Source: Cylicocyclus nassatus
Taxonomy: Eukaryota > Nematoda > Chromadorea > Rhabditida > Strongylidae
Direction: 5' to 3'
Length of the DNA: 64,000 bases
Assembly (NCBI GenBank): GCA_958299035.1
Contig: CATQJL010000316.1
Location: forward strand, 20,871,676 to 20,935,675
Both the position numbers and the translations under genes were made by a program. This document shows, in pieces, positions 546 through 55,879 of the stretch (its first letter is position 1; every line of letters begins with the position of its first letter). The notes below the pieces were generated by a model, which was given only the letters and a program-made list of their open reading frames with translations, was not told the DNA's origin and ran no database searches.

Positions 546-552
546 GGAAGTG

Positions 553-4646: not shown

Positions 4647-4703
4647 GAGCTTCCCGAGGGCAAGGCCGCTATAAGCTTGACTTAAAACATTAACTTCCGA
4701 TGA

Positions 4704-6947
4704 GTCAATGCCGAATCAACTGGACTTACCGTCTCTGGAGGTGATGATCGAGCAGAGTCGTTGTTGTCCTGTGTTGCGGTCCGCGATCGGGTGTTGATGC
4801 GAGCGATGTTGGCTTGAGTGTGGAAAAGACGTTGCTCCTCCAGATCCTTAGCGTTGGAGTGGGTGCTCGTCTCCTAAGTCGGCTTATTATATACTATTCC
4901 CGATGGTATGTGCTCTTTGTGCGCGCCGCATCTTTGTTTCTGCCATCGGCAACATGTGCTCGATGAAAGCCAAGATAGGGGAAAGCTTTGTATGAGAGTT
5001 TCTCACACAAAGGGACAAAGATGCTATCGCGCTTGAAAACATACCGAAGTTCGCATGAGATCATGAATGGGAATTCAAACATTGAATAGGAATGCTTGAG
5101 ATTGCATGCAGACTATGTTTATAATAGACAAAGAGAAATTTGTTGCGTGATTTAGCCGCGAAAAACCGAGATGGCATGAATGAAACTCAGTTTGGGGCAC
5201 GGACAAAGAAAAATGTGCATAATATAAAGTTTTACGCTTGCAAATTTGAATTTTTTGGAGGTTTGGTACAAGAAACGAAAAGTTATATGGAAAATTTGCA
5301 TAGAGTTTGTTGTGAGTTATACGAGAGATTGCGATCAAGGCTATAAGTTCAAGAAAAGTGCACGAGAAAAAAAGATTTTAGCGAAAACAACACGGAATCA
5401 TGTTTTGCTCAAAACATCGCACATGAGCGGGAGTTTGGATAAGATTGAGGTTATTGAGAAAGACTTGCAAGACAAGGATAGGTCTAATGTTATGAGTAGT
5501 TAGTAGTGAGAATGTAACATGAATGAGCAGATAGTAAGATTATACAAAAATGCAACTAAACGAGACCAAGTGAGAAGAAAACAGCGTTCTACGCGAAAAA
5601 AAAATTTATTATCTGATAAAAACTCACCTAATCCTGGAGGTCCTCGTGATGGATAGAATAGCAGAGAAGTAAGTGGCTGGAATAGAATGATCGATATCTA
5701 TTGAGTGCCACCTTTCTTACCATGTATTGACCGGTTCGCTTAGCTTGCCGTTTCCTGCCAGCTATTGACATGTAAGGATCAATTAGCTCAGGAAGGTACC
5801 TGTTGATAAGCGGCGATGGCGCAAGGCGATCGAGTCTGTCTCTCGCTAGTCCAAGGAGGGTTCAATTCCCCTCCCGGGCCGAAGCTTTGCAATCGTTTCA
5901 GCACCTTACCCTCCATCAAAAACCTTCTTGCAGAGTGGGATGCGCCGACATCCGTCGCTTTTGGGGGGTTCTCTTGGCCCCCCTGCCTCTCGGCAACGGG
6001 GGTGGGGGGGGGGCACTCGTGATTATAAAAAGACCGGGGTTTTGGATGATATAAGAGTGATGTAACGTGCGTTTCTTAGGACACCCAGAGTAATAAGGAA
6101 ACAACTATATCAACAGCAATGTCACCATTTTTTCCGGAATACTCTTTTCAAGTGAAAATCACACATTTTTGGTGAATAATGGCCAGCAAGGACCAATTAT
6201 TTCAACTTGTCTGGCTCCCAGGTCCCCAAATGGGCGACGAGGTTTGAGTGAAGAACAAAAATCATTCATTTCTTGTGTGTTGCCGTGCAGCGACAAAATT
6301 CCAACAAAAAAAAATCAAAAAGACAGATGATTTGAAGAAATTGAGAGAGATTTTGAATCTAGTAGGTGGCCATCCCCCAGACTCTACGCTGCACAATTTT
6401 CCAATCAAACTCACCCCCGGCTGAGGCTAAACGGGTCATCCCATGAGCTACTCTCATGAAGAATTCAATTCCTACAAGAGGTAAGGTCGGTTTGGGTCGC
6501 GGGCTACTACGAGGCCGCACTCGCTGCTACCACTTATGGATATCGTGTCACCCTCTTACATGAACGATACCATATTAACGCGAAAGAACGCCTCAAGGTG
6601 CACCTAACACAATCTTACAAGATGTGTTTATCTCAATAAACATGAACAACTCGCAAATATATCAAGCCGGCAAAAGAAAACAACAGAAACACAACAAGAA
6701 TGAGAAATTGGAGCCCAAACGTGATGGCTCGCTGGTCGTAGGTTCTTCACTGACTCGCCAGACTCCTCCTCTGCTTGGCATAGTTGCGCGTCGAGCTATC
6801 GCTGTGCCATCTGTAAACAAAGAGTATGGGAAGGAAGAAAGCGTACGGTGTTATACAAGTGATAATGGGAAAAGGCAAAAAGGAAAAGGAAAAGAATAAA
6901 TGTAGGTTTACATACCGGATATATACAGATATATACTTCTATTTACA
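4704..6947 (-). mobile_element. 5' LTR and leader region of retrotransposon copy 1
   Basis: About 2.2 kb upstream of gag that matches 33024-35325 of copy 2 almost base for base. The outer boundary is sharp: at 6947 the shared sequence ends with TTTACA on the plus strand (TGTAAA on minus), an LTR-type TG start. No second LTR is available to fix the inner end. A TACA at 5774-5771 would close an LTR of about 1.18 kb with matching TGTA/TACA ends. A 29-base segment present in copy 2 (34111-34139), which holds a possible primer-binding site, is missing after 5774. Small plus-strand frames here are not credible genes. Confidence 0.65.
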
Positions 6948-7217
6948 ATACATAGCGCCCCAGGTCAAAGACCATGCTCACTAAGGGGATGGTCAGAAGT
7001 CGGAGGGGCTACTCCAAACAAGCGGCTTATTACCAAACGCATAACAACGCTGATTCTACTTTCTTTCTTATCTACTAAACGCTTTCGTGGATAAATTACA
7101 TCTCTTACCGCATTACAATTCCTATTGTCGGCGCAAGTCATACGGGAACGTGGTGCAGGACCCTGAAGTGGCATCTGCATTGATGCAAAGGGACACGCAA
7201 CTGACAGTGGTTTGTAG

Positions 7218-21404: not shown

Positions 21405-22733
21405 CTTGTGGCATACTGTCAGTGTAAGAACAGCAAAGCATCACTTTAGTGAAAACATGGAAATTTTCGGTTTCCTGATTTCTAGCCAATGAAAAAATAC
21501 AGCAACAGCACATATGAGTGTCTGATGTGGAGTGTATATGCGTGAGCGAGTAAAAGATCCTGTAGGATTTGAACAAAGATGTAAAAATATTTCAGTTTTC
21601 TGAGCATCCGATAATTTTTAGATTTTGTTTTTCAACTTGAGGTAGGTCGAAGTTGGTGCAGAAGCATAAAAACTATCCTATAGAGCTTGCTTTGCTCTAT
21701 CGAATGGTATCCTAACATCTATTTAGAATAAAAAAGTATAAATTATTACAGCGAAAACTCAAAAATGAAAAGACCTATGGGACAACCTAATATTTAAGAA
21801 TTAGAAATTCGACTGACCTCATAGTCGAATGTGTTCGAAAACGATAAATTTCGAAGAATTCGAATGCTTTATTCAACTACGCGAGTATTTACTGGATTCG
21901 GACCAAAGCTGTAGTAACACAACTTGATAAGTTCGGGAAAACATCGTTTCCGAAATTGGTCAACTAGCACAAAAGAACAGTCATGAGCTAGATAATAGAT
22001 AAAAATACCTTAGCACTGCGTTAATAAATAGCTCCGCAGCAGGAGCGGATGGAAGGAAATCTTTTTTTCAAAAATGATTCGATCTCCATCATCGTAGAAC
22101 AGCGAAGAAACCAAAGCCAAATTAAATATATCTGCAACGGGATTGTCTATTACAACAAAGAAATGAACCTTCAAAACGAAAGGATAGCTACGAAGGGATC
22201 AAAAGAATCTTGCAAGTATCCAAGTATATTAAAACTGCGCCTTCTTTGAAACATTCCCAAACTTTTCGAAATTTTCCAAACTCACTTCCAGAGCATAACG
22301 TGGTGTCGAGGAAGTTTCGCTCAACACATTCACGACAGGCCAATTCGAATGCCGCCGTTCCGGACCAGAGCCTTTTTCGCTTTGTCAAACTTACGATCCA
22401 TCCGTGGGTCGCACTGTCCAAAATGGTAGTCTTTTTGAAAAAAATTCACAATGTGTGTCCAAGAATTTTTTTCAGATGTCGAAGGCGCTGATGATTAAAA
22501 TATAATTTACTTCAGCTTCTGGCATTATATGATAAGGTTATCCCATTAAGAATTGTGTTTAAGTATTTCACGTGCTGATCACGATTATAGTGTCCAATTT
22601 GTTCGCCACTGTTCCACAGAGGGGCTACGGTAGAGTAAGGTAAATTTTCGTGAAAAAAGAAACTGATGTGAGAAGGCGTTATTAAAGCTTGAGACTATCA
22701 TTTTCGTAATCAGCATGCTATAAAACCTATATA
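21405..22733. other. No gene seen
   Basis: AT-rich stretch. Overlapping frames on both strands near 22188-22491 have no domain that I recognise. A few TCGAA words occur near 21810-21870. Confidence 0.4.
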
Positions 22734-23403
22734 CAGGGTGTCCCAAAAAATGTGCACACTGTTTGATCGTCAATAACTTCCTTGCTTTGATGTCTTTCGT
22801 CGACATTCAGGTAGCATTATGTAGAGCAAGGTTCAACTTAGATTAATAGTATGGAGCGAATCACCGACCGCCCTTCATTACTGTAAGGTTACGGTAAGAA
22901 CTTCCAGCATATGGAACCATTGTGAAATATGGCATCTGAGAAAACTTTTCTTCAAAAAATCTGAAAATTCGTATATCAAGGTCTTCGCTCAAGCTGATTC
23001 CATTAAATAACTTTTTACGGGTTTTTCGGCTTTTTTGATCGGTTGGTTTAATCTCATTTCTGATAAATGCTTTACTATGGTTTTTTTTGGATAACTTAGG
23101 AAAGAAGCATCACAGTAAAGTGGACTTTTTATATTCGAAATCGGCGTCTTCAGTTATCACGGTATGAACGCTTTTGGCATTTTCGTTTTGTTCCGAGGCA
23201 GAATATGGCCTCCGATGATCTAAAATCCTTGTCATAGTTTCTACCTTAATTTTGCAGTAATGAAGAGCGATCGGTGATTTGCTCCATACTGTAAATTTAA
23301 GCCAACCTCGCTCTATAGAATAATACCCAAAAGTCGGCGGAGGGCATCAAAGCAAGGAAGTTATTAACGATCAATTAGTGTGCACACTTTTTGAGACACC
23401 CTG
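22734..23403 (+). mobile_element. Tc1/mariner-type MITE (CAGGGTGTCCC family), copy a
   Basis: 670-bp element bounded by TA dinucleotides with long inverted ends starting CAGGGTGTCCCAAAAAATGT on the left. The right end is the complement of CAGGGTGTCTCAAAAAGTGT. TA target duplication and a CAGGGTGTCCC-like tip fit the Tc1/mariner group. No transposase frame is present. Sister copies start at 52754, 53438, 55202 and 57351. Confidence 0.85.
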
Positions 23404-24363
23404 TATGTAAGATTTGATTAAAATTTGAGATTTGAGTTTTTTGGAGTGAATAACGAAAAATCAACAAAATCAACAAAATCAGTCCCTTGCCCGCCTCGTT
23501 TTTCTCATAAATGTATACTTGAGTGCACAAAAGCCGCATCATTCTTCGAAGAATTTGCGCTAAAGTCTGTGCCTTACCTTTATCCACGGTATATCTACCT
23601 TAACATTACATTACAATATTCCAAGCCCGGACCACTCTGGCTATAGCTTCGACTAGGCGTCCCCAATCTCGCGCAAAAACTCCGGACCACAACATGATTT
23701 GTCCTTGATGAGTCCTGAATAGCATTCTTTCTTGTTCGTATTATCTATGTTTTTGCATCAAAAAGGAATCAGAAATAAAATATCTGCATAGCTCTTTTAG
23801 AGCCTTATCGACGCACTTGTTTAGACTAATATGTCCGCGTTCTTTTATAACGGACGGTGCAAAAAAGAGGTCGCTTCGTCCGCCATCTTTTCGCGGGCAC
23901 TGCAATGTGGCATTAGTGCAACAATCACAAAAGTGCTTTGTTTGCAATATCAAATTGTGTGTAGTCAACTGGTGCGAGAAAAATCATAACGTCGACAAAG
24001 TGACACGCACTCAGGTGAACGTAATGCGCATGGACATACAATATAAAGGGGGTTTGGCACAGCTACGGATAACCTTCCAAATGATAAGCCATACGCATGT
24101 GCTTGTGACGGTACGGTGTCCTTTTCTGCCGTACGATACTTACTTACATAAGTAATTCCAGTTAGCGTCAATACCAGTAGTAGAAAGCAGCTGCTTAGCC
24201 AAATTTCTTGGCTGGGAAAATCCGGCAGCACGCAATAGGCGAATTGGTTTCATGTAAGGTCTATGGGAAGGCTGTGGTCTTCACCTACCATGGAAAACAC
24301 TGGTTGGTAATGTTCTACACGGGATTCTATTTTTATAGTTCGAGCCCTTTTTTTATTACTGAG
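23404..24363. other. No gene seen
   Basis: Overlapping frames on both strands near 23817-24231 show no recognisable protein. No strong repeat was noticed. Confidence 0.4.
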
Positions 24364-26641: not shown

Positions 26642-27141
26642 NNNNNNNNNNNNNNNNNNNNNNNNNNNNNNNNNNNNNNNNNNNNNNNNNNNNNNNNNNN
26701 NNNNNNNNNNNNNNNNNNNNNNNNNNNNNNNNNNNNNNNNNNNNNNNNNNNNNNNNNNNNNNNNNNNNNNNNNNNNNNNNNNNNNNNNNNNNNNNNNNNN
26801 NNNNNNNNNNNNNNNNNNNNNNNNNNNNNNNNNNNNNNNNNNNNNNNNNNNNNNNNNNNNNNNNNNNNNNNNNNNNNNNNNNNNNNNNNNNNNNNNNNNN
26901 NNNNNNNNNNNNNNNNNNNNNNNNNNNNNNNNNNNNNNNNNNNNNNNNNNNNNNNNNNNNNNNNNNNNNNNNNNNNNNNNNNNNNNNNNNNNNNNNNNNN
27001 NNNNNNNNNNNNNNNNNNNNNNNNNNNNNNNNNNNNNNNNNNNNNNNNNNNNNNNNNNNNNNNNNNNNNNNNNNNNNNNNNNNNNNNNNNNNNNNNNNNN
27101 NNNNNNNNNNNNNNNNNNNNNNNNNNNNNNNNNNNNNNNNN
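26642..27141. other. Assembly gap of 500 N
   Basis: Exactly 500 N, a placeholder length. It interrupts the integrase of retrotransposon copy 2 on the right, while the left flank shows no retrotransposon sequence. Confidence 0.99.
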
Positions 27142-27596
27142 AATGGAGTGGAAATGACATACCTGGTGAACCAGCATACTATGTTCAAGATGTACTTGTT
27201 ACCTCTATCCGTGGTTTTGAGTGGACCGCACAGATCGAGTCCCACTTTGGCGAAGACGGCTTCGCTATGCACTGGAATAAGTTGTTCTTTATATGCTGGT
27301 TTAGGTTTTCTGCGCATTTGGCATGTGAGACAGCTTTCACACCATTTATGTATGTCACTATAAATTGTTGGCCAATAGTACTTACGCAAAATCTTGGCTA
27401 ATGTTTTTCGCCAGCTGACATGGCCTCCTGAGAGTGCGCTAGAATGATGAGCTTCAAAAAGCAATTGACGCAACGATTGGGGTACCAATAAGAGCAGTTT
27501 TACTGCATCTTTTCGTTCGAATCGATAGTACAAACAACCATCGGATTTTATATGTCTTGTTTGCCATCTCTGATACTTCTTTTTTGATTTGCTCAT
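27142..27596 (-). pseudogene. Integrase N-terminal part (copy 2), truncated by gap
   Basis: About 150 residues before the gap. They carry the HHCC zinc-binding domain (HHSSALSGGH ... CESCLTCQ) and the start of the catalytic core with LDLCGPLK, where the first catalytic Asp lies. The core's remaining acidic residues are lost in the N run. It would insert element DNA into the chromosome. The preceding RNase H frame overlaps in another frame, so a frameshift separates the two. Confidence 0.85.
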
Positions 27597-28866
27597 CAGT
27601 AGAGGGCTCTAAGTTTTCAGTAGTTTTTAGCTGGAAAACTAACCCTAGGAAGCTGTCAGATTTTTGTTCATCTGCAAAGTTAACAGGGTGTTGTAGGCCT
27701 TTTACGAACGTTTTTCTGGGAAATGGTGAAGATTTAGCTTGCACCCCTGTAGCTAAGCAGAATGTTTGTAAACTCACTGGGAATTCGATGATGTCTTGCA
27801 ACTCATCCCTGACTACTGGGATTTCGCTTTTGTCCTCGAAAATGCGCGATAATGCGTCGGCTACCGCATTCTTTTCGCCTTTTACGTGTACAACTTTGAT
27901 GTTGTAACTCTGCAGCTCAATTATCCACCTTGCTAGGCTGTCATGCGTTTTACTTTTATTTAATAAAAATGTGAGCGGCTTATGGTCACTATGTAGAACT
28001 AGCTCGGACATGCAGATATATGGTTTGAATTGGCGTAACGCATATATAATCGCACCTAGTTCTACTTGTACCGCGGGCCAGCGACGCTCGCTATCGCTTA
28101 AAGTGCGGCTACAGTATGCTATGGCATAGTATTTATTTGGCCCCGTTTCGTGCTCCTGCATTAGAGCGCCCGCTTGAGCTACCTGACTGGCATCCGTAAA
28201 AATGTGAAACGGTTTATCGTAATTTGGGTACCCGAGGATGAGTTTTTGCAATAACGCGTCTCTAAGCTCTACGAAGGCGGCTTCTTGCTTGTCGGTCCAT
28301 TGAAATTTATTATCCTTACGCGTTAGCCAAGTGAGCGGCTCAGCAATGGTTGCAAGATTTGGAATAAATTTTCGAAAGAATCCTACCATACCCACAAAAC
28401 GCTTAACTTCCTTGACGTTGCGCGGGGTGGGAAATTCTCTAATGGATCGAGTATCTGCCTCCGCAGGTGAGTAGCTGTGCATATTTACCGTATGACCCAG
28501 AAAAGTGATCTGGTGTCTGGCAAAGACGCACTTTTTCGGCGATGCTTTTAGGTGGAATTCGCGCAAGCGGGTTAACACTTTTCGGATGGCGCTAAGGTGT
28601 GATGGGAAGTCTTTGCTATAGATTAGAATGTCATCAATATATGTAAGTACATTATCCTCTAAACCTCCTAACACGCGGGCCATTATACGAGCGAAATAAC
28701 TACTAGCAGACTTTAGACCAAATGGTAGATGTGTCATCTGGTACACACGATTCTCAGTTATTACGCCGCATTTATAACTACTTTTTTCATCTAGTGGCAG
28801 TTGTAGGTAGCCACTAGCGAGATCTAGAGTGGTGTAATACTTATTTCCACCAATTTTCTCTAGCAC
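27454..28866 (-). pseudogene. Reverse transcriptase and RNase H (copy 2)
   Basis: 470 residues from the RT palm onward: TTLDLASGY, LPFGLKSA, catalytic YIDD, FLGH, VGFFRKFIPN (connection), then RNase H with FTDAS, an ELGAIIYAL helix and LHSDHKPL. Together they convert element RNA to double-stranded DNA. The frame is open upstream to the stop/frame change at 28905, which is shared with copy 1, and ends in an out-of-frame tail after the RNase H-integrase junction. All visible catalytic motifs are intact. Confidence 0.9.
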
Positions 28867-28904
28867 ATCGTCGATGCGGGGGATTGGGTACGGATCAGGA
28901 AGTG

Positions 28905-29546
28905 TTAAGTAACTTTATTGATTGGGCGGCGCATGTCTAGGCAGACACGCAGTGAATTGTCCTTTTTACGCACTACAACTAGATTATGCACCCATGGAGT
29001 GTGTGACTCCTTCATTACGCCGCATTTCAGAAGCATATTTACGTGCTTTTGTAGCTCTTCGCGATACTCTACTGGAACGCGGTAAGGGCGAATGCGTGCT
29101 GGTGGATCATTATTGGTGTAAATATGCACCTTACCAGCTGTACAGCTACCTATGTCATACTGATGTCTAGAAAATACGTCGGCGAATTCTACAAGCAAAT
29201 TTGCCAGCTGCTCACGTTCTACATCGCTTAGATCGCTGTTGTCAAGATCTACGCGGTAGCTCGGGTCATCGCTAGTTAATTCGCTTACACACGAGATTGC
29301 GGAAGTAATTTGCGTATCATCAGCTTCAGTCACCGTAAGACCCTCTTGAATTACCTCAGCGGCATTAGCTATACGCATGCCTGCATATAGAGTTACCGGC
29401 TGGTTGCTTGGATTAGACACCAAAATATATGGTGTCTCGGAATTGATTATGGCCGGAGCTACTACGAGGTCCTTTTCATTTAATTTTGTACATTGTGAGA
29501 CCAAGACAAAGTCATTCTTTGAGTTTGCGGGCGGGGCTGTGCACAC
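28905..29546 (-). pseudogene. Protease-RT linker and RT N-terminus (copy 2)
   Basis: Matches the C-terminal ~213 residues of the 553-2382 frame of copy 1: a spacer rich in Asn and Ser, then an RT start block (ARIRPYRVP, GVMKESHTPWV, LRVCLDMRRPIN) ending with a stop at 28905-28907. It is separated from the protease by a 5-base insertion near 29580-29587 relative to copy 1. Confidence 0.85.
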
Positions 29547-29581
29547 TACAAAACTTTCGCTATTAGGTTGCAGGCATACTA

Positions 29582-30460
29582 TTATATATCCCTCACTCTA
29601 ATCGGGTACTCTAGCTCGCTCAGATCGTTTTTCTTTTTAGGGGTTGCACCCAGGGGGAGTACGGTACTACCGAAATGCACTTGCTTTGTTTGATAGTTGA
29701 TGGTCATGGGGTGTAGCTTGGAAAGAACGTCTTGACCCAGAATTACTTCATAATTGGAGTCTACATTAGGTACACAATGGCCTTTGGTGAAATGGAGAAC
29801 CGCGTATAACTGTGTGTTACCTATGTCGAATTTGACAGTTTTAGAACCAGCCATTGGGACAGGAGTGCCCGCCATGCCTAATGCTGCAAACATATGGGGT
29901 TTGTCAAGATGGAATATTCCTAGAGCTGCGCATATCCCATCCGAAGCTAGTGTTATGGTTGAACCCGTATCTATTAATGCTGATACGCTTATATCATTAA
30001 TTTTTATCCTGATATGTGCGGATGTAACCGGGTGTGTTAGGGATACATGGCAAACTTTGGGGAAATCATAACGCTTGATCGTTGTTAGCTGCATTGCATT
30101 GGAGTCATTGGCTTGGTTATTTGAAGGATTACTCTGATTATTAGATTGGAAGGTGCGGAAATATTGCAAGAAGTTGGTTGGAATTTGGGTCGAAAGATAA
30201 ATTATGAGAGCGCGTGAAAGTATTTGAAAGGTAACAATAGCACAACAGACTACCCAGGGGTGGTAAATGTACTCCAATACGTAATTGAGTAATTTACGCG
30301 GTGTTGCAGTAATGAAATTAACCTTTGAGACTTTTTGTACGGGATTAGGATTAAAGGAGCCCAAGTGTGCGTTCAAAATTGCGTCATGACTTTCGATTGC
30401 TGCCCACAATTCAGTAATTTGTTGTTCGGGTATGAACTCACTTAGATTAGTAATAACCAA
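29582..30460 (-). pseudogene. Membrane anchor and aspartic protease (copy 2)
   Basis: 292 residues. A hydrophobic stretch at about 68-90 is the membrane anchor of the Env-like module. An N/Q/S-rich linker follows, then a retropepsin with DTGS at 164-167 and ILGQDVL near 251. The protease would mature the polyprotein. Membrane anchor and protease are in one frame, as in copy 1. A 28-base deletion near 30470 relative to copy 1 (where the bases lie at about 2112-2139) breaks the join to the ectodomain. Confidence 0.88.
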
Positions 30461-32010
30461 ATTATGATAGGTGAATGATCACTAGAGAGTTGCAGAGTGG
30501 TGATATCGGAGGAAGATATAGATTCGAAGGTATATGTAAGAGGATAAAATTTAAGAATAGAGTTGTTACAAGGGATTTCAAATGATAAGTGTTCAGAGCA
30601 AGGAATAGAATCTACCTCATTGGTCAAAACTCCCGTTATGGGATCGATAAATGTTTTCCATTGTGATTTATTAGGCAAGTTAACAATGACGGAGGGATGT
30701 GAAAAGCAAGAAGAGTTAAATTTTACTAGAGAATATAACGACGGAGGAATTACAGCGCAAGCTTGCGTAGCGACAATGTTTTCGCCTATAAAGTTCGCTT
30801 TGATATCAGAACGCTGTAAAATATTTCGCATGGCTACAGTAGGATTTGCGGAGATAGCGGCTGCAAAAGACATGCTCAGAGAATTCATAGACTTGCATAA
30901 GGACAGAATGGTATGATGAAAAGATGTAGTCAATGAATCTTGCATATTGTCCTCGACTGCTAATAACTGCGCGGCTAATTGATTAGAAGTTGCGAGACCA
31001 ACTTGTTGCAAAACTGTTGGCTTAATGTGTCTTTTTTGACGAGGCATGAAAGAATAGAATTGAGCAGCGTATCCCTGGTCAGTAGGAACAAGAGAGTGAC
31101 CACAATCAAGAAATTGAGAATCAAATGAAGGAAAGGATAGAGCAAATTCTTTAGAGTCGCTTAGCCATACTCTATCTACCAAAGTGCCTTTCATGGGCGA
31201 AACCAAAACATACTTACATCTCTCCTCTGATTCCGGTGTCCATATTACGGCTGCTCCATCCTTCGTTGTACAGGCTCCGTCCCCATATCGGCATCCCTCC
31301 AGTGGTCCTATGGAGCTTTCGATCGTAGGAGATCCATGATAACCATATACCATTGCCTGGAATATGATACAATTTGAAACAGTCATGGTATAGTCCGCAC
31401 AACAATGGAAAGGAGCGGAAGGCCAAACAATTTCAATTTTATTCAAAGTTTTCCAAACGTTACCTATTGCTGAAAGTTCGCCATGAGCGCAAGCTTTGTG
31501 ACTGATCATGTGCTGACACACCCCTTTTGAGACGGTCTGCTCTTTCGTTACAGTTCCCTGTGAGCGAGCACCAAAAAAGTTTACCGAATAAGTGACTGTT
31601 TGGGTAATTATTCTACAAACATTAGCTGTGCTCTTATACCTAATTGTGTTTGGTCTAAACACTTTGATTTTCGTTGGGCGTGCTATCGCAGACCAGCTAG
31701 GCAAAATTTTAGTACAATTGATCCCAGACGGTATTTTCCAGTATGTGACAGGTGATTTGTTAGAACATAAGTACGCGGGAGGTAATTCGTATGCAGATGC
31801 GTGAGCGATCAAAGCGAGAACTAACATACATGTGGATGTGAGTTTAGAAGGACCGGATGTGGAAGAGAATGTGCGAAGAGTTATTTCTCCGCCATCTGTA
31901 GAACTGTTTGGTTCACGGGTTGCAAACGCAATGTCTGCCAACGCGTTATTTCTGGCGATTAGCGCTGCAATATGAGCATCTTTTTCCTCTAAGAGATTGA
32001 GTGCGCGCAT
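30442..32010 (-). pseudogene. Signal peptide and Env-like glycoprotein ectodomain (copy 2)
   Basis: 522-residue frame, the longest view of the module. Residues 5-55 are the end of the nucleocapsid tail. About 57-74 is a hydrophobic signal peptide. The ectodomain has some 17 cysteines and sequons NKS (84), NCT (98), NSS (432), NKS (447) and NNS (482). A furin-type RQKR lies at 324-327, followed by a glycine/alanine-containing helical stretch to about 385. Such a layout is that of a membrane-fusion glycoprotein that is cleaved and anchored near its C-terminus; the anchor lies in the next frame. Which fusion-protein class it belongs to I cannot say by eye. Confidence 0.8.
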
Positions 32011-32281
32011 TAGTGATATCTGGCGCTGGTGTCTGCTCTACTGCTAGCACATTGGATCTGTCGTAACTATCTGATCGCTGATGCGGGATTGAGTTACGTT
32101 GCGCAAGGGTTCTAGAGTAATCTATACGCTCTCTTGGACTTTGTTTATGATTCGAATTTGGTGGAGGATTATTCCTTATTGGAAGTTGACGCCGCTGTTG
32201 AAAATTGTTGTTAGGGGGAGGCATACTAGAGCGACAAACATTAGCAAGATGACCGATTTTTCCGCACTTGTAACAAGTCAC
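31946..32281 (-). pseudogene. Gag zinc knuckle (nucleocapsid, copy 2)
   Basis: CCHC zinc knuckle (CYKCGKIGHLANVC) and a basic Pro/Asn/Gln-rich tail, an RNA-binding nucleocapsid. The frame breaks near 31990, where copy 2 lacks two bases relative to copy 1; the next frame (32010-30442) then picks up the same protein text. Confidence 0.85.
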
Positions 32282-32642
32282 ATTCGCATTGGATGAACGC
32301 GGCCATGATGGTATTTGATCTGTTAGAAAATGGTCTTACCTCTCTCGGTCCGGAATTGGTGGTTGGGTGGTCTCTCCTTCCATGGTTGAAGTCTCTCCTG
32401 ACGTCATCGGTCTCTCTCCTTGCGACGTACGTACGTAAATCTGGATTAAATACCATTACATCGGACATTTCGTTGCATAAAGACTCATATGTGGTTGTTT
32501 TTACCAGAGCATCTTCAAAAGTTTTGGGGTTTTGCGCTTTGACGTGCCATTTCATATCTGGTTTTAGGCGATTGACAAATTCTTCCAAAAGTCTGTCTTG
32601 CACAATGTTCTTAGGCGCCCCTTTCATTAGACTTTGGACCAC
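32241..32642 (-). pseudogene. Gag capsid C-terminal part (copy 2)
   Basis: Matches the second half of the copy 1 Gag frame (LLEEFVNRLKPD ... EVRPFSNRS) and then runs off frame near 32310. Copy 1 and copy 2 differ there by two bases in length, and each shifts the zinc knuckle differently. Confidence 0.85.
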
Positions 32643-33009
32643 TTTTCGGACGATTGGCTCTTTGCTTGCATTCAGCCAGTTCTTGTCTTGCTATTTCGCG
32701 AGAGTATGGCAACTCAAAATGCGAGCGTAGAAACGAAACTACCTTATCATAATTGTTTCTGTCCTCGGGGGCCATTTCTTCAATGATATCGCGCGCGTCG
32801 CCTCTCAAAATAGCATAAAGTGCATTGACTTTAAGTTGTTCCGGCAGAGGTACGACAGAATTGCGCATAATGTCTTCAAACTGGCGATGCCACTCATTAA
32901 AATCTTGGGTGCTATCACCGAAGAAGTATTCAATATGTTTGGGCGCGAGCTTCCCGAGGGCAAGGCCGCTATAAGCTTGACTTAGAACATTAACTTCCGA
33001 TGAAGACAT
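32611..33009 (-). pseudogene. Gag capsid N-terminal part (copy 2)
   Basis: Starts at ATG 33009-33007 (MSSSEVNVLSQAYS), chosen because it is the first ATG ahead of the shared Gag text and is absent from copy 1. It contains FNEWHRQFEDIM and the LYAILRGDARD block, then is broken by a deletion of 26 bases at 32652, relative to 4327-4352 in copy 1. Confidence 0.85.
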
Positions 33010-35325
33010 ACCTTCACCGGTAGTCAATGCCGAATCAACTGGACTTACCGTCTCTGGAGGTGATGATCGAGCAGAGTCGTTGTTGTCCTGTGTTGTAGTC
33101 CGGGATCGGGTGTTGATGCGAGCGATGTTGGCTTGAGTGTGGAGAAGACGTTGCTCCTCCGGATCCTTAGCGTTGGAGTGGGTGCTCGTCTCCTAAGTCG
33201 GCTTATTATATACTATCCCCGATGGTATGTGCTCTTTGTGCGCGCCGCATCTTTGTTTCTGCCATCGGCAACATGTGCTCGATGAAAGCCAAGATAGGGG
33301 AAAGCTTTGTATGAGAGTCTCTCACACAAAGGGACAAAGATGCTATCGCGCTTGAAAACATATTAAAGTTCGCATGAGATCATGAATGGGAATTCAAACA
33401 TTGAATAGGAATGCTTGAGATTGCACGCAGACTATGTTTATGATAGACAAAGAGAGATTTGTTGCGTGATTTAGCCGCGAAAAACGAGATGGCATGAATG
33501 AAACTCAGTTTGGGACACGGACAAAGGAAAATGTGCATAAAGAAAAGTTCTACGCCTGCGAATTTGAATTTTAGGAGTTTGGTGCAAGAAACGAAAAGTA
33601 TATGCAAGATTTGATAGAGTTTGTTGTGAATTATACGAGAGATTGCGATCAAGAATATAAGTTCAAGAAAAGTGCACGAGAAAGAAAGATCTTAGCGAAA
33701 ATAACACGGAATCATGTTTTGCTCAAATCAATGCACATGAGCGGGAGTTTGGATAAGATTGAGGTTATTGAGAAAGACTTGCAAGACAAGGATAGGTCTA
33801 ATGTTATGAGTAGTTAGTAGCGATAATGTAACATGAATGAGCAGATAGTAAGATTATACTAAAATGGTGCATTTTCCTCAAAAATGCAACTAAACGAGAC
33901 TAAGTGAGAAGAAAACAGCGTTCTACGCGAAAAAAATGGATTTATTATATGATAAAAACTCACCTAATCCTGGAGGTCCTCGTGGTGGATAGAATGGCCG
34001 AAAAGTAAGTGGCTGGAATAGAATGATCGATATCTAATGAGTGCCACATTTCTTACCATGTATTGACCGGTTCGCTTAGCTTGCCGTTTCCTGCCAGCTA
34101 TCAACATGTATCGCCACGTCAGGTCACCGGCGCCACCAGGATCAATTAGCTCAGGAAGGTACCTGTTGATAAGCGGCGGATGGCGCAAGGCGATCGAGTC
34201 TGTCTCTCGCTAGTCCAAGGAGGGTTCAATTCCCCTCCCGGGCCGAAGCTTTGCAATCGTTCCAGCACACTACTGCTTGTATTTCCAAGCTTACCCTCCA
34301 TCAAAACCTTCTTGCAAAGTGGGATGCGCCGACATCCCTCGCTTATGGAGGGTTCTCTTGGCCCTCCTGCCTCTCGGAAAGGTGGGGGTGGGGGCACTCG
34401 TGATTATAAAAAGACCGGGGTTTTGGATGATATAAGAGTGATGTAACGTGCGTTTCTTAGGACACCCAGAGTAATAAGGAAACAACAATATCAATAGCAA
34501 TGTCACCATTTTTTCGGAATAATCTTTTCAAGTGAAAATCACACATTTTTGGTGAATAATGGCCAGCAAGGGCCAATTATTTCAACTTGTCTGGCTCCCA
34601 GGTCCCCAAATGGGCGACGAGGTTTGAGTGAAGAACAAAAATCATTCATTTCTTGTGTGCTGCCATGCAGCGACAAGATTCCAACAAAAAAAAAATCAAA
34701 AAGACAGATGATTTGAAGAGAAAATTGAGAGATTTTGAATCTAGTAGGTGGCCATCCCCCAGACTTTACGCTGCACAATTTTCCAATCAAATTCACCCCC
34801 GGCTGAGGCTAGACCGGTCATCCCATGAGCTACTCTCATGAGGAATTCAATTCCTACAAGAGGTAAGGTCGGTTTGGGTCGCGGGCTACTACGAGGCCGC
34901 ACTCGCTGCTACTATGGATATCGTGTCACCCTCTTACATGAACGATACCATATTAACGCGAAAGAACGCCTCAAGGTGCACCTAACACAATCTTACAAGA
35001 TGTGTTTATCTTAATAACATGAACAACTCGCAAATATATCAAGCCGGCAAAAGAAAACAACAGAAACACAACAAGAATGGGAGATTGGAGCCCAAAGACG
35101 TGGTGGCTCGCTGGTCGTAGGTTCTTCACTGACTCGCCAGACTCCTCCTCTGCTTGGCATAGTTGCGCGTCGAGCTATCGTTGTGCCATCTGTAAACAAA
35201 GAGTATGGGAAAGAAAAAGCGTACGGTATTATACAAGTGATAATGGAAAAAGGCAAAAAGGAAAAGGAAAAGAATAAATGTAGGTTCACATACCGGATAT
35301 ATACAGATATACACTTCTATTTACA
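33010..35325 (-). mobile_element. 5' LTR and leader of retrotransposon copy 2
   Basis: Upstream sequence shared with 4704-6947. Outer end at 35325 (minus strand TGTAAATAG). The TACA at 34110-34107 would give an LTR of about 1.22 kb with TGTA/TACA ends; the inner end is unproven because the 3' LTR is missing. The plus strand near 34185-34250 has a tRNA-like B-box (GGGTTCAATTCC), also present in copy 1, but no good cloverleaf forms. Confidence 0.65.
34122..34138 (-). promoter_or_regulatory. Possible tRNA primer-binding site of copy 2
   Basis: On the minus strand this reads TGGTGGCGCCGGTGACC, starting with TGG as expected for pairing with a tRNA 3' CCA end. It is absent from copy 1, where 29 bases are deleted. 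If the LTR instead ends at TACA (34107), the site would lie within the LTR, and a conserved TGGCAGGAAACGGC just beyond it (about 34098-34085) would be the alternative. I cannot name the tRNA. Confidence 0.25.
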
Positions 35326-35777
35326 ATATTAACTTCCCAGTAAAACATTTTCTAGTCTAACAAATTATGGAAATGTGTTCTACTGAACCAACATATAACT
35401 AAGTAAAACAAAGCAACAAGGGAACAAGAAAAAATTACTGGAAATGAGCAGGTTTTAGTTTCGTAGTTCGTAAGTTAGCGTGTATAGTGTGCACTACGCA
35501 TATTGAGTTACGAATGACTCGACGTATCAAATTAAATGTTTTGGAGTTTGATTGATGATAATGCCAAAATGCTCAGTAGCCTCTGATGTAATTTTTATAC
35601 AAGGTTTTATGGTGCGCTGTTTTTTGACCACCAGAAATTGTGATTTTCAAATTTCTTTTCGTTTCTGGTCATGTTCGAATCAGAGTTTATAATATGCATG
35701 AATACAACATACCTTATATGCATCGAACAAAAGCGGTTGACTAGTCATTTTTGCGATTTTTGGAAATTTTTGGTGCA
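35326..35777. other. No gene seen
   Basis: AT-rich, between retrotransposon copy 2 and the composite repeat. Confidence 0.4.
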
Positions 35778-39500: not shown

Positions 39501-42500
39501 TTGTCACGTTACATTAGACTTCTTTTTAGGATATCTTAATACCTGACGAAGAACTTCAGCACAGGTCTGTATCCCCTAATGATTGGTCTTCTCAACAATC
39601 AACACAGAGTGTCGAAAATCCGGGTAATTCATGGGTAAGCTTGGATATGATTGAATAACACCGTTATGCCGAAAAAACACCAAAAGAATTTTTTCTAAAT
39701 TTTGATTTTGTTTCTGCTTTTTTGAAGGCAGTATCAGCCTCAGAAATAGCATGATATCCTCGATATCCCTATCATTTCTGAAAGAAAAATGTATAATCTT
39801 TTGAAAACCATGCAATTAAACAAGCTAGAGAGTGGGGTCCTTTGAAGAAAAGCTGTCATAAATCCCAAGCATTTTGAATTACCAAATAAGCACAAGCTGA
39901 AAAACTCAAAATCTTCATTTTTTTAAAAAGTCTTATTTTCTCGCTTTTAACGTCGGAGAACAGATACAATCAAGGAATATATCAATGTATTAGGTTGGTC
40001 CGAAAGTTCTTGCGCATCATTTTCAAAAAATCATAACTTCCTTGCCACTCGATGGATTTCGTTAAGATTATACCTGTTCGAAAGAGGAATCCATGCTCTT
40101 TACCGCTGTACCTTCGACATGAATTACTTTGAGAAACTTCGAGAGTTACAAGCAATTGAAGGAAATCAGTCAAAATTGGCATTTTTCGAGCTGGGTCACG
40201 AAAAATTCTGGAAGTATCTTTGTTGGATAGAGAAAATTATGCTCATTACAATGGTACTTTTCTGATGAGTTGAAACGAAAAAGATCGAAAGTTAGGAGCA
40301 AATAAAGAGAATTCCTTCAGTTTTGTAATTTTTGAGCATGGTCAAAAAAGCCCAGAAACGTCACAGAAAAAATGAAAAAGTCATAAACGTGGGTTTTGTG
40401 ATCTTCTCTTTCTAGCTGAGCGGAATTCGTGCTAATCGAGAGCAATTTTGATTTTCGTGAAAAATGCAGGCCCGAAAATCCGAAAAAATCACGTAAAACA
40501 AAATTGCTCTCGATTAGCTCGAAAGTTGCTCAGCTAGATGAGAAGGTCACAAAACCCACGTTCATGGCTTTTTCGTATTTTCTGTGACGTTTCTGGACTT
40601 TTTTGACCATGCTAAAAAATTACAAAACTGAAGGAATTCTCTTTGTTTGCTCCTAACTTTCGATCTTTTTCGTTTCAACTCATCAGAAAAGCACCATTGT
40701 AATGAGCATAATTTTCTCTATAATATAAAAGTACTTCCAGAATTTTTCGTGACCCAGCTCGAAAAATGCCAATTTTGACTGATTTCCTTCAGTTGCTTGT
40801 AACTCTCGAAGTTTCTCAAAGTAATTCATGTCGAAGGTACAGCGGTAAAGAGCATGGATTCCTCTTTCGAACAGGAATAATCTCAACGAAATCCATCGAG
40901 TGGCAAGGAAGTTATGATTTTTTGAAAATGATGCGCAAGAACTTTCGGACCAACCTAATATATAACAGTAAGAAAACTCGTCAAAATTATTAATTCTTCA
41001 ACAGTAAGAAAAAATTAGTCAAAAAGCGAGTTAGATACGCCAAAGTAGGTCAAAAAAATTAGATAGGTCGGTGATAAAAGATGAAAGTTTGATAAGCTGA
41101 TATATAAGGGACAGCGTAGATCACCAAGTCAAAATATCTTATTTTAATCTACACAACTGCCACGAGATCCTTAGGCTTATAAAATTGACCACTTCCCCCA
41201 CGTAATCTGAGAAAATGAAAAACGGTGGAAAATTTTAAAACACGACCAGTTGGGAATTGATAGGTGATTCAATTGAGAAGAAGCAAAATAACCATCCTTA
41301 ATGGACGCTTCAACAAAACCGCGTTGATGTCAAAATTTGCAACAGAAAAAACCATTCAATTTTCAATGTATTTGTAAATTTTTGTAAACTTTCCGGTATA
41401 GTTTTAGACTCCACCATTGGATTGTTTTCCAAAACAACGAATTCCTGCCGTTTAGAATGATTTAGATATCAAGGATATCACACTACCTCTGGGGCTGATT
41501 CGCACCCCTGCGCGACCAATGCGGGCAAATTTCTCGGCAGGAGTCCAGACGACGAACATGTAGGTTGCTGCATGATGCTGCGCGAGGGCGCAATACCTTT
41601 GTGCGCGAATATGGCTATTCTAGCCGCAGAGCGCATGAGGCTCACGATTTACAACAGTAGAGGATACGCGCGCGTCGCGTTTGCTCCCGCTCAACTAATA
41701 CTGCTTCTGCGCCTTCGTCATGCAGTAGCCTTTAATTACTGTATTATCTGCGGCGATATGCCGGCAGCTCCAGCGGCTGGCTGCGGCAACAATCGGCTGC
41801 CCGGCTACCACGTGTACGCCTCCCGCGATGCAAGGACGGCTAGCGGAATCGAGAAGGCCGCTCCGGAAGCTGGGAGCATGAATTCACAGTGAGGAGCATC
41901 CCACCCACTGGCTGTTCCCCTTTTTTGGCCGTTTTCGCTTTCAGGTTTGGATTTTCGGATTCAGCATGACGAATGGGCCTGGATAAGTGCGAATTTTTGA
42001 AATCGAGTTTTTGCCCGGACACTGCCTTTAAGGCAGCAGAGCTTTGTAGTTCTTTGGAGAATATTGGTACTTGAATATTTCAAAGGATTGAAGCTCTCAA
42101 TTAGCTAATCTATTAAAGATGTCAAAACCATTGCTCATTCAGTAACCTTTTTTACATGTCAGGACCCTATGCTTTACCTTCATACTACCTCTGGACTCTG
42201 TGTATTTTATTGTCGCTATCGAGAGTAGTGGTCCATGTTCATTTCCTTAGTGCTGACGTTGGCAAAATTTTTCTTTCCAGTTCTAAGAGTTTGATCTCAG
42301 TCTGAGCTTTGAAAAAGTAGTTCGCTTGATCGAAATGGCAATTTGGAAGGTGATGTATACCCATGGATAGAGCTTTCGCTGATGCTCGATCCTCTTTATC
42401 TGCGATGCGTTTTTCTTACAAAAACGTTATGACCTTTTCTTATGCCAAATTTTCGTGTATTTTTGAGCGTAAAGTTACGGTAGTTTTCACCCGAAAGTAT

Positions 42501-51646: not shown

Positions 51647-52146
51647 NNNNNNNNNNNNNNNNNNNNNNNNNNNNNNNNNNNNNNNNNNNNNNNNNNNNNN
51701 NNNNNNNNNNNNNNNNNNNNNNNNNNNNNNNNNNNNNNNNNNNNNNNNNNNNNNNNNNNNNNNNNNNNNNNNNNNNNNNNNNNNNNNNNNNNNNNNNNNN
51801 NNNNNNNNNNNNNNNNNNNNNNNNNNNNNNNNNNNNNNNNNNNNNNNNNNNNNNNNNNNNNNNNNNNNNNNNNNNNNNNNNNNNNNNNNNNNNNNNNNNN
51901 NNNNNNNNNNNNNNNNNNNNNNNNNNNNNNNNNNNNNNNNNNNNNNNNNNNNNNNNNNNNNNNNNNNNNNNNNNNNNNNNNNNNNNNNNNNNNNNNNNNN
52001 NNNNNNNNNNNNNNNNNNNNNNNNNNNNNNNNNNNNNNNNNNNNNNNNNNNNNNNNNNNNNNNNNNNNNNNNNNNNNNNNNNNNNNNNNNNNNNNNNNNN
52101 NNNNNNNNNNNNNNNNNNNNNNNNNNNNNNNNNNNNNNNNNNNNNN
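51647..52146. other. Assembly gap of 500 N
   Basis: Exactly 500 N, bordered on both sides by adapter sequence in opposite orientations. Confidence 0.99.
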
Positions 52147-52171: not shown

Positions 52172-52743
52172 TTGGGTTTCGCGATCTTCTCTTTCTAGCT
52201 GAGCGAAAATCGTGCCAATCGGGAGCAATTTTCATTTTCGTGAAAAACGCGGACTCGAAAATCCGATTGAATCACGAAATTCAAAATTGTTCCTGATTGG
52301 CGCGATTTTCGCTCAGCTAGAAAGGAAAGGCCACAAAACCCATGTTTATGACGTTTTCGCCTTTTCTGTGACGTTTTCAAGCATTTTTGAGCATGCTCAA
52401 AAATTGCAAAAATGAAGAAATTCTCTTTATTTGCTTCTAACTCTCGATCTACTTCGTTACAATTCATGAAAATGGCACCACTGTAATGTGCAAAATTTTC
52501 TTTATCAAATAAAAGTACTTCCAAAATTTTTCGTGATCCAGCTCGAAAAATGCCGATATTGACTGATTTCATTCAATTGCTTTTAACTCTCGAACTTACC
52601 AACGCTAGTTCATGACAAAGGCACCGCTATAAAGAAAAAGGTTTCCTCTTTCATACAAAAATAATTTTGAGAAAAAATCGTTGAGAAGAAAGGAAGCTAT
52701 GATTTTTTGAAAATCCGACGCAAGAACTTTTGGGACAACCTAA
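52172..52743 (+). mobile_element. Mariner-type palindromic MITE (TTAGGTTGG family), copy B, left arm missing
   Basis: Corresponds to about 40392-40958 of copy A: the centre and the full right arm, ending GGGACAACCTAA followed by TA. The left arm is lost at the adapter/gap. Confidence 0.75.
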
Positions 52744-52753
52744 TATATATATA

Positions 52754-53429
52754 CAGGTGTCCCAAAAAGATGTGCACACTGTTTGATTGTTAACAACTTT
52801 CTTGCTTTCATGTCTTTTGCCGAGCTCGAGGTACCATTCTGTAGAGCGAGGATAAACTTAGATTTACAGTATGGAGGGACTTACCAGCCGCTTTTCATTA
52901 CTGTAGAATTACGGTAAGAATTTCGAGGAGGATTTTCAGCAATGGAAAGCTGTATTTTGCCTCAGAAAAAAGCCAAATAAGCCAGAAACTCTTGAACTGG
53001 GTTAATCATAGTCGCTGATTCTAAATATGAAAACTGCACGTCAGTACAATGTTTCTTTCATGAGTTAATACAATTTAGGGTAACAACTGATTTTCTAATG
53101 TTCATCAGAAATGTGAATACGCCATCAAGAAAGCTCGAAAAACTGATGGAAAGTTATGTAGTGAAATCAGCACGCCTGAAAACCTTGCTACACAATTTTT
53201 TAGATTTTTTTGAAAATATCTCATCAAAAGTCTTATCCCACAGTGATGCTGTATGCTGAAAGTTCATACCGTAATCCTACAGTAGCAAAAAGAGATTGGA
53301 GTTTCGCTTAATACTATAAATCTAAGTTTATCCTCGCTCTAAAAATGATACTTCAGGCTCGGCAAAAGACATGAAAGCAAGAGAGTTATTAACGATCAAA
53401 CAGTGTGCACATCTTTTTGGGACACTCTG
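52754..53429 (+). mobile_element. Tc1/mariner-type MITE (CAGGGTGTCCC family), copy b
   Basis: 676 bp, TA-bordered, starting CAGGTGTCCCAAAAAGATGT and ending with the complement of CAGAGTGTCCCAAAAAGATG. Long outer arms. Close to copies a and d. Confidence 0.85.
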
Positions 53430-53437
53430 TATATATA

Positions 53438-54106
53438 CAGGGTGTCCCAAAAAAATGTTTCGAACGTTTGATCGTTAATATCTCTCTTCCCAAGAAGTCT
53501 TTTGCCTTGCTTAAGGGACCGTTTTGTAGGGCTGGCTTCAAATTAGATTCGCATTATAGAACGAATCACCCATCTCTCTTCATTACTGTAGGATTACCGG
53601 TAGAAACTTGAAAAAGGGTTTTAAGCAATGAAAGGCCATATTTTGCCTCAGAAAAGAAACAAAACAGCCTGAAAGCTTCTACACTAGGCTAATTAGAGTT
53701 GCTGATTATAACTGTAAAGTCGACTTATTATGATGCTTCATTGAAGAGTTATCCCAGGTTAGAGGTAGCGACCATTTTTTCAATGTTCCTAAAAAGTGCG
53801 ATTACACCGTTTAGAAAACTTCGTAACCTTGTGAACAGTCGAGTATTGAACTCAGCGTCCATAAAAACCCTATTACACAAGTTTTCAAAATTATTTGAAA
53901 ATTTTGAAACGGCAGCTTTTTTCCAACCACATGTTTCAAGTTTCTACCGTAATACTACAGCAATGAAGAGAGCTGGGTGATTCGTTCTCTAGTACAAATC
54001 TGAGTTGAAGCCAGCTCTACAAAACGGTACCTGAAGCAAGGCAAAAGACTTTTTGGGAAGAGAGATATTAACGATCAAACGTCGAAACATTTTTTGGGAC
54101 ACCCTG
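53438..54106 (+). mobile_element. Tc1/mariner-type MITE, copy c (divergent subfamily)
   Basis: 669 bp with the same CAGGGTGTCCCAAAAAAATG tip, but a different subterminal sequence (TTTCGAACGTTTGATCG rather than TGCACACTGTTTGATCG). It is separated from copy b only by TATATATA (53430-53437). Confidence 0.85.
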
Positions 54107-54266
54107 TATATATTGTACCTTCAAATATTTTGGGAAAATACGCATGAGGCGCTCATATAATTTGTCATTTTATCCATACTGCAAAAGACAATGTGGTCCA
54201 ATCATTTGTTTCGTATTGCCCTTTTTCTTTACATTTGTTTCTGCGGCGTACTCTATATCACATGAA

Positions 54267-55199
54267 TCTTATATTTAAAGCTGAATGTCTGTTTATCTGT
54301 CTGTATGTCTGTATGTGTGTATTAGGTTGGCCCAAAAAATCTGTCGTTTCATTTTCAAAAATTTGTAACTCCGCGATAAATGCTGTTCCGTTGGAGCTGT
54401 TTGGAGCTTCTGTTTCACACTGGGTGCGGAAATAAAAATGGAAAACTAAGACCATATAAGCTTTGACCATTTTAAGTTAGGTCACCAAAAATCTGGAATG
54501 CTTCAGAAAAATCTGAAATTGTCAGCACATATGTTTTTGGCCTACTCTTTGCATCTGCAAAAAGTTTGTGCTGTTTGGATGTCTCTGTGAGAAGTTATGA
54601 ATATCGAGTTTACTATGGAAAACGCCAAAATTGATTCATTTTTCAATTTTCGCGAAAATCATAACTTCTCACAGAGACGTCCAAACAGCACAAACTCTTC
54701 ACTGTTGCAAAGAGTAGGCTAAAAAACATATGTTTTGACGATTTCAGATTTTTCTGCAGCATTCCAGATTTTTGGTGACCTAACTCAAAATGGTCAAAGC
54801 TTATATGGTCTTACTTTTCTATTTTTATCTCCGCACCCAATGTGAAACGGAAGCTCCGCAAAACAGCGTTTGAAAGCGAAAGACTTATTCTTTCTAATAA
54901 AATTAAATTACAAGCAAGCACATCCGTTGAAATTTCTCGGAGTTACAAATTTTTGAAAATGAAACGACAGAACTTTCGGGCCAACCTAATATGTCTGTGT
55001 GTACGTATGTTCCGAATAGAAATTTTAATTTTTGAACCGATCCGGACCAAACTTGGCACACATATCTTCGGATCGGGGCGGGTGTCGTGGCTACTCTTCG
55101 TCATCGATCAATATCGATTTTATCGATTTTTATCGACTTTTTGCAGAGTTCACCTACGGGGCTAAGATGTGGCATGGGGGGGGGGGTAATCGAGCATTA
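54267..55199 (+). mobile_element. Helitron-like element split by a MITE
   Basis: The left part 54267-54320 starts A|TCTTATATTTAAAGCTGAAT and enters the GTCTGTATGT tract. The right part 54992-55199 resumes with GTCTGTGTGTACGTATGTTC and follows 15985-16155 through the ATCGATCAATATCGA patch to a 9-G run and AATCGAGCAT. The element between them is 54322-54989. The 3' hairpin is missing; copy d of another MITE starts at 55202. Confidence 0.65.
54322..54989 (+). mobile_element. Mariner-type palindromic MITE (TTAGGTTGGCCC subfamily)
   Basis: 668 bp between TA dinucleotides, tips TTAGGTTGGCCCAAAAAATC and the complement of TTAGGTTGGCCCGAAAGTTC. Much of the element is a long inverted repeat around GGAAAACGCC. 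It is inserted in the GTCTGT tract of the Helitron-like element. Confidence 0.85.
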
Positions 55200-55201
55200 T
55201 A

Positions 55202-55879
55202 CAGGGTGTCCCAAAAAATGTGCACACTGTTTGATTGTTAATAACTCTCTTCCCAAGAAGTCTTTTGTCATGCTTTAGGCACCATTTTGTAGAGCGAGGT
55301 TCAACTTAGATTTGCAGTATAGAGCGAATCACCGAGCTCTTTTTATTACTGTAGGATTACGGTAGGAACTTCGACAAGGATTTTAGGTCTTTGGAGGCCA
55401 TAATCTGCCTCGGAACAAAACCAAACAAGCCGGAAACTCTTGCACTATGGTAATGGAAGCCGCTTAATTTCGAATATGAAATTTCCGCTTTACTGTGATG
55501 CCTCTTTCCTAAACTATCCCAGGTGAACCGTATAATTGACCTTCCAGCATTTTTCAAAAATGTGATTACACCGTCAAAAAAGCTGAAAATACCCGTAAGA
55601 AGTTGTGTAGTGGAATCAGCGTGCGCGAAAACCCTAGTACACGATTTTTCAGATTTTTTGAAAAAAATTTTGTCAGGCGGCATATTTCACGATGGTTCCA
55701 TATGCTGAAAGTTCCTACCGTAATCCTACAGTAATAAAAAGAGCTCGGTGATTCGCGCTATGCTGCAAATCTAAGTTGAACCTCGCTCCAAAAAATGGTG
55801 CCTAAAGCATGGCAAAAGACTTCTTGGGAAGAGAGTTATTAACAATCAAACAGTGTGCACATTTTTTTGGGACACCCTG
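55202..55879 (+). mobile_element. Tc1/mariner-type MITE (CAGGGTGTCCC family), copy d
   Basis: 678 bp, TA-bordered, with tips CAGGGTGTCCCAAAAAATGT and a perfect complement. It sits at the right end of the Helitron-like remnant. Confidence 0.87.

Follow-up and report, generated by a model that had tools for sequence, protein, structure and literature searches.

A stretch of 64,000 nucleotides from the nematode Cylicocyclus nassatus (assembly GCA_958299035.1, contig CATQJL010000316.1, positions 20,871,676 to 20,935,675 of the forward strand), here called the window, contains two copies of a Ty3/gypsy-like long terminal repeat (LTR) retroelement, in which a block resembling a viral envelope glycoprotein (Env) separates the protease from the Gag tail. 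The order Gag-Env-protease itself is almost certainly real, and the ectodomain of the Env block is predicted to adopt the class III fold of viral fusion glycoproteins. Probably, nematode elements of this kind produce the glycoprotein as an internal part of a single, membrane-threaded Gag-Env-protease(-Pol) polyprotein. The gene order, the reading frames, the homology to relatives and the conservation across hosts were read directly from the sequences, and the fold was obtained by prediction.

Organization of the two copies

Both copies are encoded on the minus strand, copy 1 at positions 1-6950 and copy 2 at 28353-35328, and are 94% alike. They share the order Gag capsid, CCHC zinc knuckle, short Gag tail, hydrophobic signal peptide, cysteine-rich ectodomain with an RQKR site, stem, membrane anchor, DTGS protease, dUTPase-like linker and reverse transcriptase (RT), while RNase H and the start of the integrase are found only in copy 2. 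A preliminary description of this DNA, based on its letters and open reading frames (ORFs), had claimed this order from knuckle to protease for copy 2 and the sharing of frames across the Env borders for copy 1. Both claims are confirmed by the ORFs, and the former also by Pfam matches, which were judged here against the cut-offs of the respective models.

In copy 2, the first open piece of the Gag capsid (32611-33192) matches Retrotrans_gag (0.0021) and DUF1759 (3e-5), and the C-terminal piece in another frame (32241-32690) matches Ty3_capsid (0.0015); all three matches are under the cut-off, and the copy 1 counterpart of the first piece (3957-4715) matches Retrotrans_gag over it (1.5e-6). 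The zinc knuckle of the Gag nucleocapsid (32234-32275; zf-CCHC 1.8e-5, over the cut-off) lies within ORF 32335-31946. ORF 32037-30442, with 531 codons, extends from the Gag tail, which carries a conserved motif of the type E-K-D-A-x-I-A-A-L-I-x-R-N-N (31933-31986), through the predicted internal signal peptide (31792-31845) into the ectodomain (30469-31791), including its furin-type RQKR site (31041-31030). Stem, anchor (30194-30256) and the DTGS aspartic protease (29720-30013; gag-asp_proteas 2.3e-6, barely over the cut-off) are encoded by ORF 30478-29582. Further downstream follow the dUTPase-like linker with the N-terminal part of RT (28905-29597; Herpes_ORF11 2.2e-4, under the cut-off), gypsy-type RT and RNase H (27454-28914; RT_RNaseH 9.4e-28, RVT_1 1.1e-23) and the start of the integrase (27144-27608), which is cut by a run of N at 26642-27141.

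In copy 1, the single frame of ORF 3990-3382 extends from the knuckle through the Gag tail to the signal peptide, and most of the ectodomain is encoded in another frame (2310-3485; 88% identical to copy 2). ORF 2388-553, with 611 codons, contains the end of the ectodomain, stem, anchor, protease and the start of RT in one frame, and RT continues to the window edge (2-562). Because the frames of copy 1 are open across both Env borders, this copy provides direct DNA evidence at each of them. No LTR pair is visible within the window, because copy 1 runs off its left edge inside RT and copy 2 stops at the N run. The outer ends of the shared stretch both start with TG on the sense strand, which is LTR-like and constitutes weak evidence.

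Comparing the two copies over 346 ectodomain codons, trimmed to exclude out-of-frame ends, revealed 37 nucleotide and 20 amino acid differences, with 0.027 nonsynonymous (dN) and 0.069 synonymous (dS) changes per site and a dN/dS ratio of about 0.40. Random placement of the same changes produced on average 26.4 amino acid changes, and 20 or fewer in 22 of 2000 trials. The constraint on the ORF for stem, anchor and protease is stronger (dN/dS 0.10).

A Ty3/gypsy backbone with a predicted class III fusion glycoprotein

Judged by Pfam models, the backbone is of the Ty3/gypsy (Metaviridae) type: the RT is gypsy-type, protease, RT, RNase H and the integrase start follow each other in gypsy order in the window, and the complete order is present in the related proteins P0048 and P0050. 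The nearest RT among the relatives described below is P0068 of Haemonchus contortus (72%), and the nearest Env is P0001 (71%); judged by such relatives, the host is likely to be a strongylid-like nematode. Two other assignments were rejected. Belpaoviridae with env (Tas, Cer7/13, Atlas, Anakin) do not fit the matches to gypsy-type RT and RNase H models and the position of Env ahead of the protease, and the gag-pol-env order of Retroviridae and errantiviruses occurs in none of 51 Env-bearing proteins, as protease, RT or integrase never precedes Env.

Based on its predicted fold, which includes a long central helix, the Env ectodomain is a viral class III fusion glycoprotein of the type found in gB and mononegavirus glycoproteins. 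The profile matches point in the same direction. The entire Env ORF matches the Pfam family Monjiviricetes_fusion at 1.2e-5, but its score of 24 bits falls short of the cut-off of 27, which the ectodomain alone exceeds with 29.2 bits. Profile A1, from which six of the 37 first matches were omitted (P0030, P0032, P0033, P0035, P0036 and P0037), matched gB of Epstein-Barr virus in the PDB at 7e-4, while most of its other matches came via the Gag part of its rows; a phmmer search of the PDB with the Env ORF returned nothing significant. The possibility raised in the preliminary description, that the ectodomain is a non-glycoprotein extension of Gag, is rejected on the basis of the predicted fold. 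In the aligned relatives, the cysteines and an RxxR motif are conserved across hosts, the latter at the RQKR position in 31 of 33 rows. The conserved stretches SVNFFGAR and WPSAPF are candidates, and only candidates, for fusion loops. Scans of IMG/VR with the Env ORF and with A1 found no relative, and a scan with A2 found one distant gypsy contig, L001, in which no long Env block was seen between knuckle and protease.

Position of Env across nematodes

Three protein searches, seeded with Env or Env-Pol proteins and restricted by length limits, provided a set of 70 relatives, which is a collection and not a census. The pieces of the element were mapped onto all of them by BLAST (E <= 1e-4). Env is present in 51 of the 70, and none has protease, RT or integrase ahead of it. 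A capsid or knuckle is located upstream of Env on the same polypeptide in 25 of the Env-bearing proteins, a protease downstream in 18, and both in seven (P0041, P0047, P0048, P0050, P0051, P0052 and P0054). Gag, Env, RT, RNase H and integrase are combined in one predicted protein in the gene models P0048 from Caenorhabditis remanei (2243 amino acids) and P0050 from C. brenneri (2362 amino acids). Capsid, knuckle, signal peptide and ectodomain are also joined in P0001 and P0002, which derive from contig collections, so that spliced models are less probable in their case. As named by the sources, the hosts of Env-bearing proteins include Ancylostoma, Haemonchus, Nippostrongylus, Oesophagostomum, Cooperia, Ostertagia, Heligmosomoides and Cylicocyclus, in addition to Caenorhabditis remanei, briggsae, brenneri, japonica and nigoni, Acrobeloides and Meloidogyne. 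Because homologues in other species maintain the same order, the arrangement reflects more than chance. A clear signal core is found in 15 of the 25 Gag-Env proteins and a clear anchor in 13 of the 18 Env-protease proteins. In four of the 15 clear cases (P0009, P0011, P0017 and P0048), no methionine is present between knuckle and signal core, which argues against a separate start of Env.

In five relatives (P0043, P0044, P0056, P0058 and P0061), Gag leads directly to the protease without Env. A knuckle is recognizable by pattern in four of them, the exception being P0044. The conserved Gag-tail motif of copy 2 is common to these env-less relatives, where it leads to the protease; the Gag-tail stretch before the protease is similar in P0043 and weaker in the others, and in P0061 the tail contains KDQQIQSLIIRNNLL, resembling KDAQIAALIKRNNELA of the Env-bearing P0039. 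The env-less relatives thus show the putative insertion point of Env, which lies between Gag tail and protease.

A first RT tree comprised 23 rows (nine Env-bearing, five env-less and nine of state not known), and a second comprised 27 rows (12 Env-bearing, five env-less, nine of state not known and L001 as outgroup); P0042 has no RT and is in neither. In the first tree, the five env-less relatives are united in one clade (98/95) with three rows of state not known, opposite the nine Env-bearing ones, and a single change explains the distribution. With L001, one change is still sufficient at a support reduced to 50/95, and the long branch of L001 fixes no root. Distances in Gag and Env are correlated (r 0.77, 14 elements, p 2e-4 by Mantel permutation), as are distances in Env and RT (r 0.65, 12 elements, p 2e-4; r 0.58, p 0.009 in a subset of eight elements). 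These correlations, calculated with boundaries set by hand, are what long co-inheritance would produce, and are indicative only, being Mantel tests on related sequences. The preliminary description had allowed for a block peculiar to the two copies or for an unrelated insertion; the former is contradicted by the 51 Env-bearing relatives among the 70 collected with Env or Env-Pol seeds, and the latter by the two correlations.

Proposed working of the element and alternative explanations

We infer that the element is probably translated as one precursor with the topology and cleavages set out here, and that it would bud and have fusion activity. Unspliced genomic RNA would be translated into Gag-Env-protease(-Pol). 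Gag would emerge in the cytosol until the signal recognition particle (SRP) meets the internal signal peptide, whereupon the ectodomain would be threaded into the endoplasmic reticulum and signal peptidase would sever it from Gag. The anchor would stop the transfer and leave protease and Pol cytosolic. Cleavage at RQKR would be due to a furin-type enzyme, and the protease of the element itself would free the remainder. Targeting by SRP, signal peptidase and stop-transfer are established secretory biology; together, these steps would carry the ectodomain, and no other part, across the membrane. Gag, Env and protease would arise in a fixed ratio from a single message and have a common membrane as their starting point. 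The element may work like the flavivirus-type polyprotein, a single chain that contains the capsid, an internal signal peptide, the envelope protein and the enzymes; flaviviruses are unrelated viruses with another class of fusogen, and no membership is claimed.

A single Gag-Env-Pol precursor, which the preliminary description had proposed for the ancestor of the element, is supported but not proved by the gene models from Caenorhabditis and Ancylostoma and by the open frames of copy 1. The latter, in combination with the four proteins lacking a methionine ahead of the signal core, argue for a Gag-Env-protease precursor. Several observations weigh against it. Both window copies are broken, with frame breaks between some pieces of each, and unbroken Gag-Env-Pol DNA was not encountered. 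Most of the long relatives are gene models, which can skip introns or stops. There is no clear signal core in ten of the 25 Gag-Env proteins and no clear anchor in five of the 18 Env-protease proteins, some of the low-scoring proteins being visibly cut gene models. The gene model P0042 from Heligmosomoides runs from knuckle to protease without Env, as splicing would give, and in strongylids a frame change occurs inside RT, so that the DNA there is not one uninterrupted polyprotein up to the integrase.

Splicing is the main rival to a single precursor. Env could be a facultative intron, such that unspliced RNA yields Gag-Env(-Pol) and spliced RNA yields Gag-protease-Pol, most Pol being made without membrane insertion. 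P0042 would be in line with this, although it may be an artefact of the predictor, and Cer1, another nematode gypsy element, produces a spliced mRNA (PMC10309623). A scan of the Env borders in both copies revealed no donor with fewer than two mismatches to AGGTAAGT and no acceptor with fewer than two to TTTTCAG, which is a crude test with consensus sequences on two near-identical copies. On balance, we regard a facultative intron as unlikely. If Env had its own internal start, reached through leaky scanning or reinitiation or provided by a subgenomic message, the frame shared with Gag would be a by-product. A methionine within or just ahead of the signal core in several members would permit this, but four of the 15 clear cases have none between knuckle and core, and a separately started Env would still continue into protease and Pol, as ORF 2388-553 of copy 1 illustrates; such a start appears improbable.

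The broken state of both window copies and the existence of an env-less clade in Caenorhabditis could also indicate that Env is a decaying passenger without present use and the genome plan a fossil. The cysteines and the RxxR motif are nevertheless conserved across hosts, and the dN/dS of about 0.40 in the ectodomain speaks against decay, though the constraint is weaker than on the stem-anchor-protease ORF; we assign this explanation, too, only a slim chance. A chance nested insertion or an assembly artefact that joined an unrelated viral glycoprotein to both copies has a negligible probability: the window does contain N runs and other repeats, but the same order is found in relatives from many nematode species, and this constancy led us to reject a nested insertion as a general account.

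Frame change in RT and helicases in relatives

The frame changes at the same place inside RT in copy 1 (553-562) and copy 2 (28905-28914, both minus strand), where the first ORF ends with MRRPIN(E/K)VT and the rest of RT is continued in a different frame. Three proteins from other strongylid species (P0004, P0038 and P0039) stop at the same RT residues, P0045 from Cooperia shifts frame there, and 14 other compared relatives read through. The RT could be split at this point, or a frameshift within it could be programmed. RNA folding at the break gave no clear signal (copy 1, -24.3 versus -19.7 for shuffled sequences with a standard deviation of 3.3; copy 2, -18.8 versus -18.2).

A UPF1-like superfamily 1 helicase is encoded downstream of the integrase or other element parts in the gene models P0052, P0069, P0065, P0057, P0046 and P0037. 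The helicase of P0069 matches UPF1 at 1.3e-27, and the region around it is common to P0052, P0069 and P0057 (38-59% identity). Some elements may possess this helicase as a 3' gene; alternatively, the predictor may have fused neighbouring genes. A tblastn search of the window with the helicase parts of the relatives produced no match.

Tentatively, these observations can be combined into a broader scheme, which we consider quite possible. The Gag-Env-protease-Pol plan would be stable and old in strongylids, Caenorhabditis and Meloidogyne, with Gag, gB-like fusogen and protease in one membrane-threaded polyprotein. The strongylid frame change would keep RT and integrase scarcer than the structural part, some lineages would have added a UPF1-like helicase after the integrase, and the env-less Caenorhabditis elements would be secondary losses.

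Comparison with known retroelements

Errantiviruses, such as gypsy of Drosophila, resemble the present element in combining a Ty3/gypsy backbone with a captured viral env, but their Env follows Pol and belongs to another fusogen class. The capture of Env by LTR elements is already known, and the parts of the element are known as well, while its genome plan is unfamiliar. Atlas, Tas and Anakin are BEL/Pao elements with captured Env (PMC9094657, PMC7642597). The env-bearing nematode Belpaoviridae, Atlas virus among them, are likewise retroelements with a captured viral fusogen, and Atlas, too, forms one polyprotein that neither stops nor introns interrupt; in contrast to the present element, it is of the BEL/Pao type, and its Env, which is class II and phlebovirus-like, is located C-terminally, in the order Gag-Pol-Env (PMC9094657). 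Tas of Ascaris is a nematode element said to carry a gB-like env (PMC9094657), but it is a BEL/Pao element with env downstream of the polyprotein (PMC9094657, PMC7642597); moreover, PMC7642597 gives the sources of Tas and Cer-7 the opposite way to PMC9094657. The mosquito element Anakin, whose glycoprotein is chuvirus-like (PMC7642597), and the Jingchuvirales-derived glycoproteins of arthropods fall into the same broad class III group (PMC7642597, PMC10084718). Gypsy fragments lie beside Jingchuvirales-type glycoproteins in Hymenoptera and other insects, and endogenous viral elements with such glycoproteins are flanked by simple repeats in Nematoda (PMC10084718). Anakin differs by its BEL/Pao backbone, and a glycoprotein between Gag and protease is mentioned in no available passage of these two papers (PMC7642597, PMC10084718). 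Cer1 of C. elegans is a nematode gypsy element without a stop between gag and pol, but it has no Env and encodes an extra protein, CERV, after pol, from a spliced mRNA (PMC10309623). In the open-licence PMC literature, mostly available as abstracts, no description of Env between Gag and protease was found. The plan, which the preliminary description had called new or rare, was thus not met in the literature found, and what is unfamiliar is the plan and not its parts.

In retrovirus-like elements, env as a rule follows pol. The arrangement is an exception to this and suggests a second route to an enveloped particle, in which the fusogen resides within the structural polyprotein and is not a gene added at the end. 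It raises the questions of whether a Gag-Env fusion can be membrane-threaded and yet assemble, by what means Pol is spared, and along which paths gB-like fusogens passed among mononegaviruses, herpesviruses and nematode elements. As such elements occur in Caenorhabditis species, tests in laboratory worms are feasible.

Other features of the window

No tRNA was found in the window. The N runs at 26642-27141, which cuts the copy 2 integrase, and at 51647-52146 are each exactly 500 bases long and are probably scaffold gaps. Outside the element, a repeat family is present at 22722-23415 and 52748-55887, with direct and inverted units of about 175-700 bases that are 70-82% alike in most pairs. An inverted repeat (39985-40408 and 40540-40963) has arms of 424 bases that are 96% complementary and 131 bases apart, and a related copy is located at 52272-52675.
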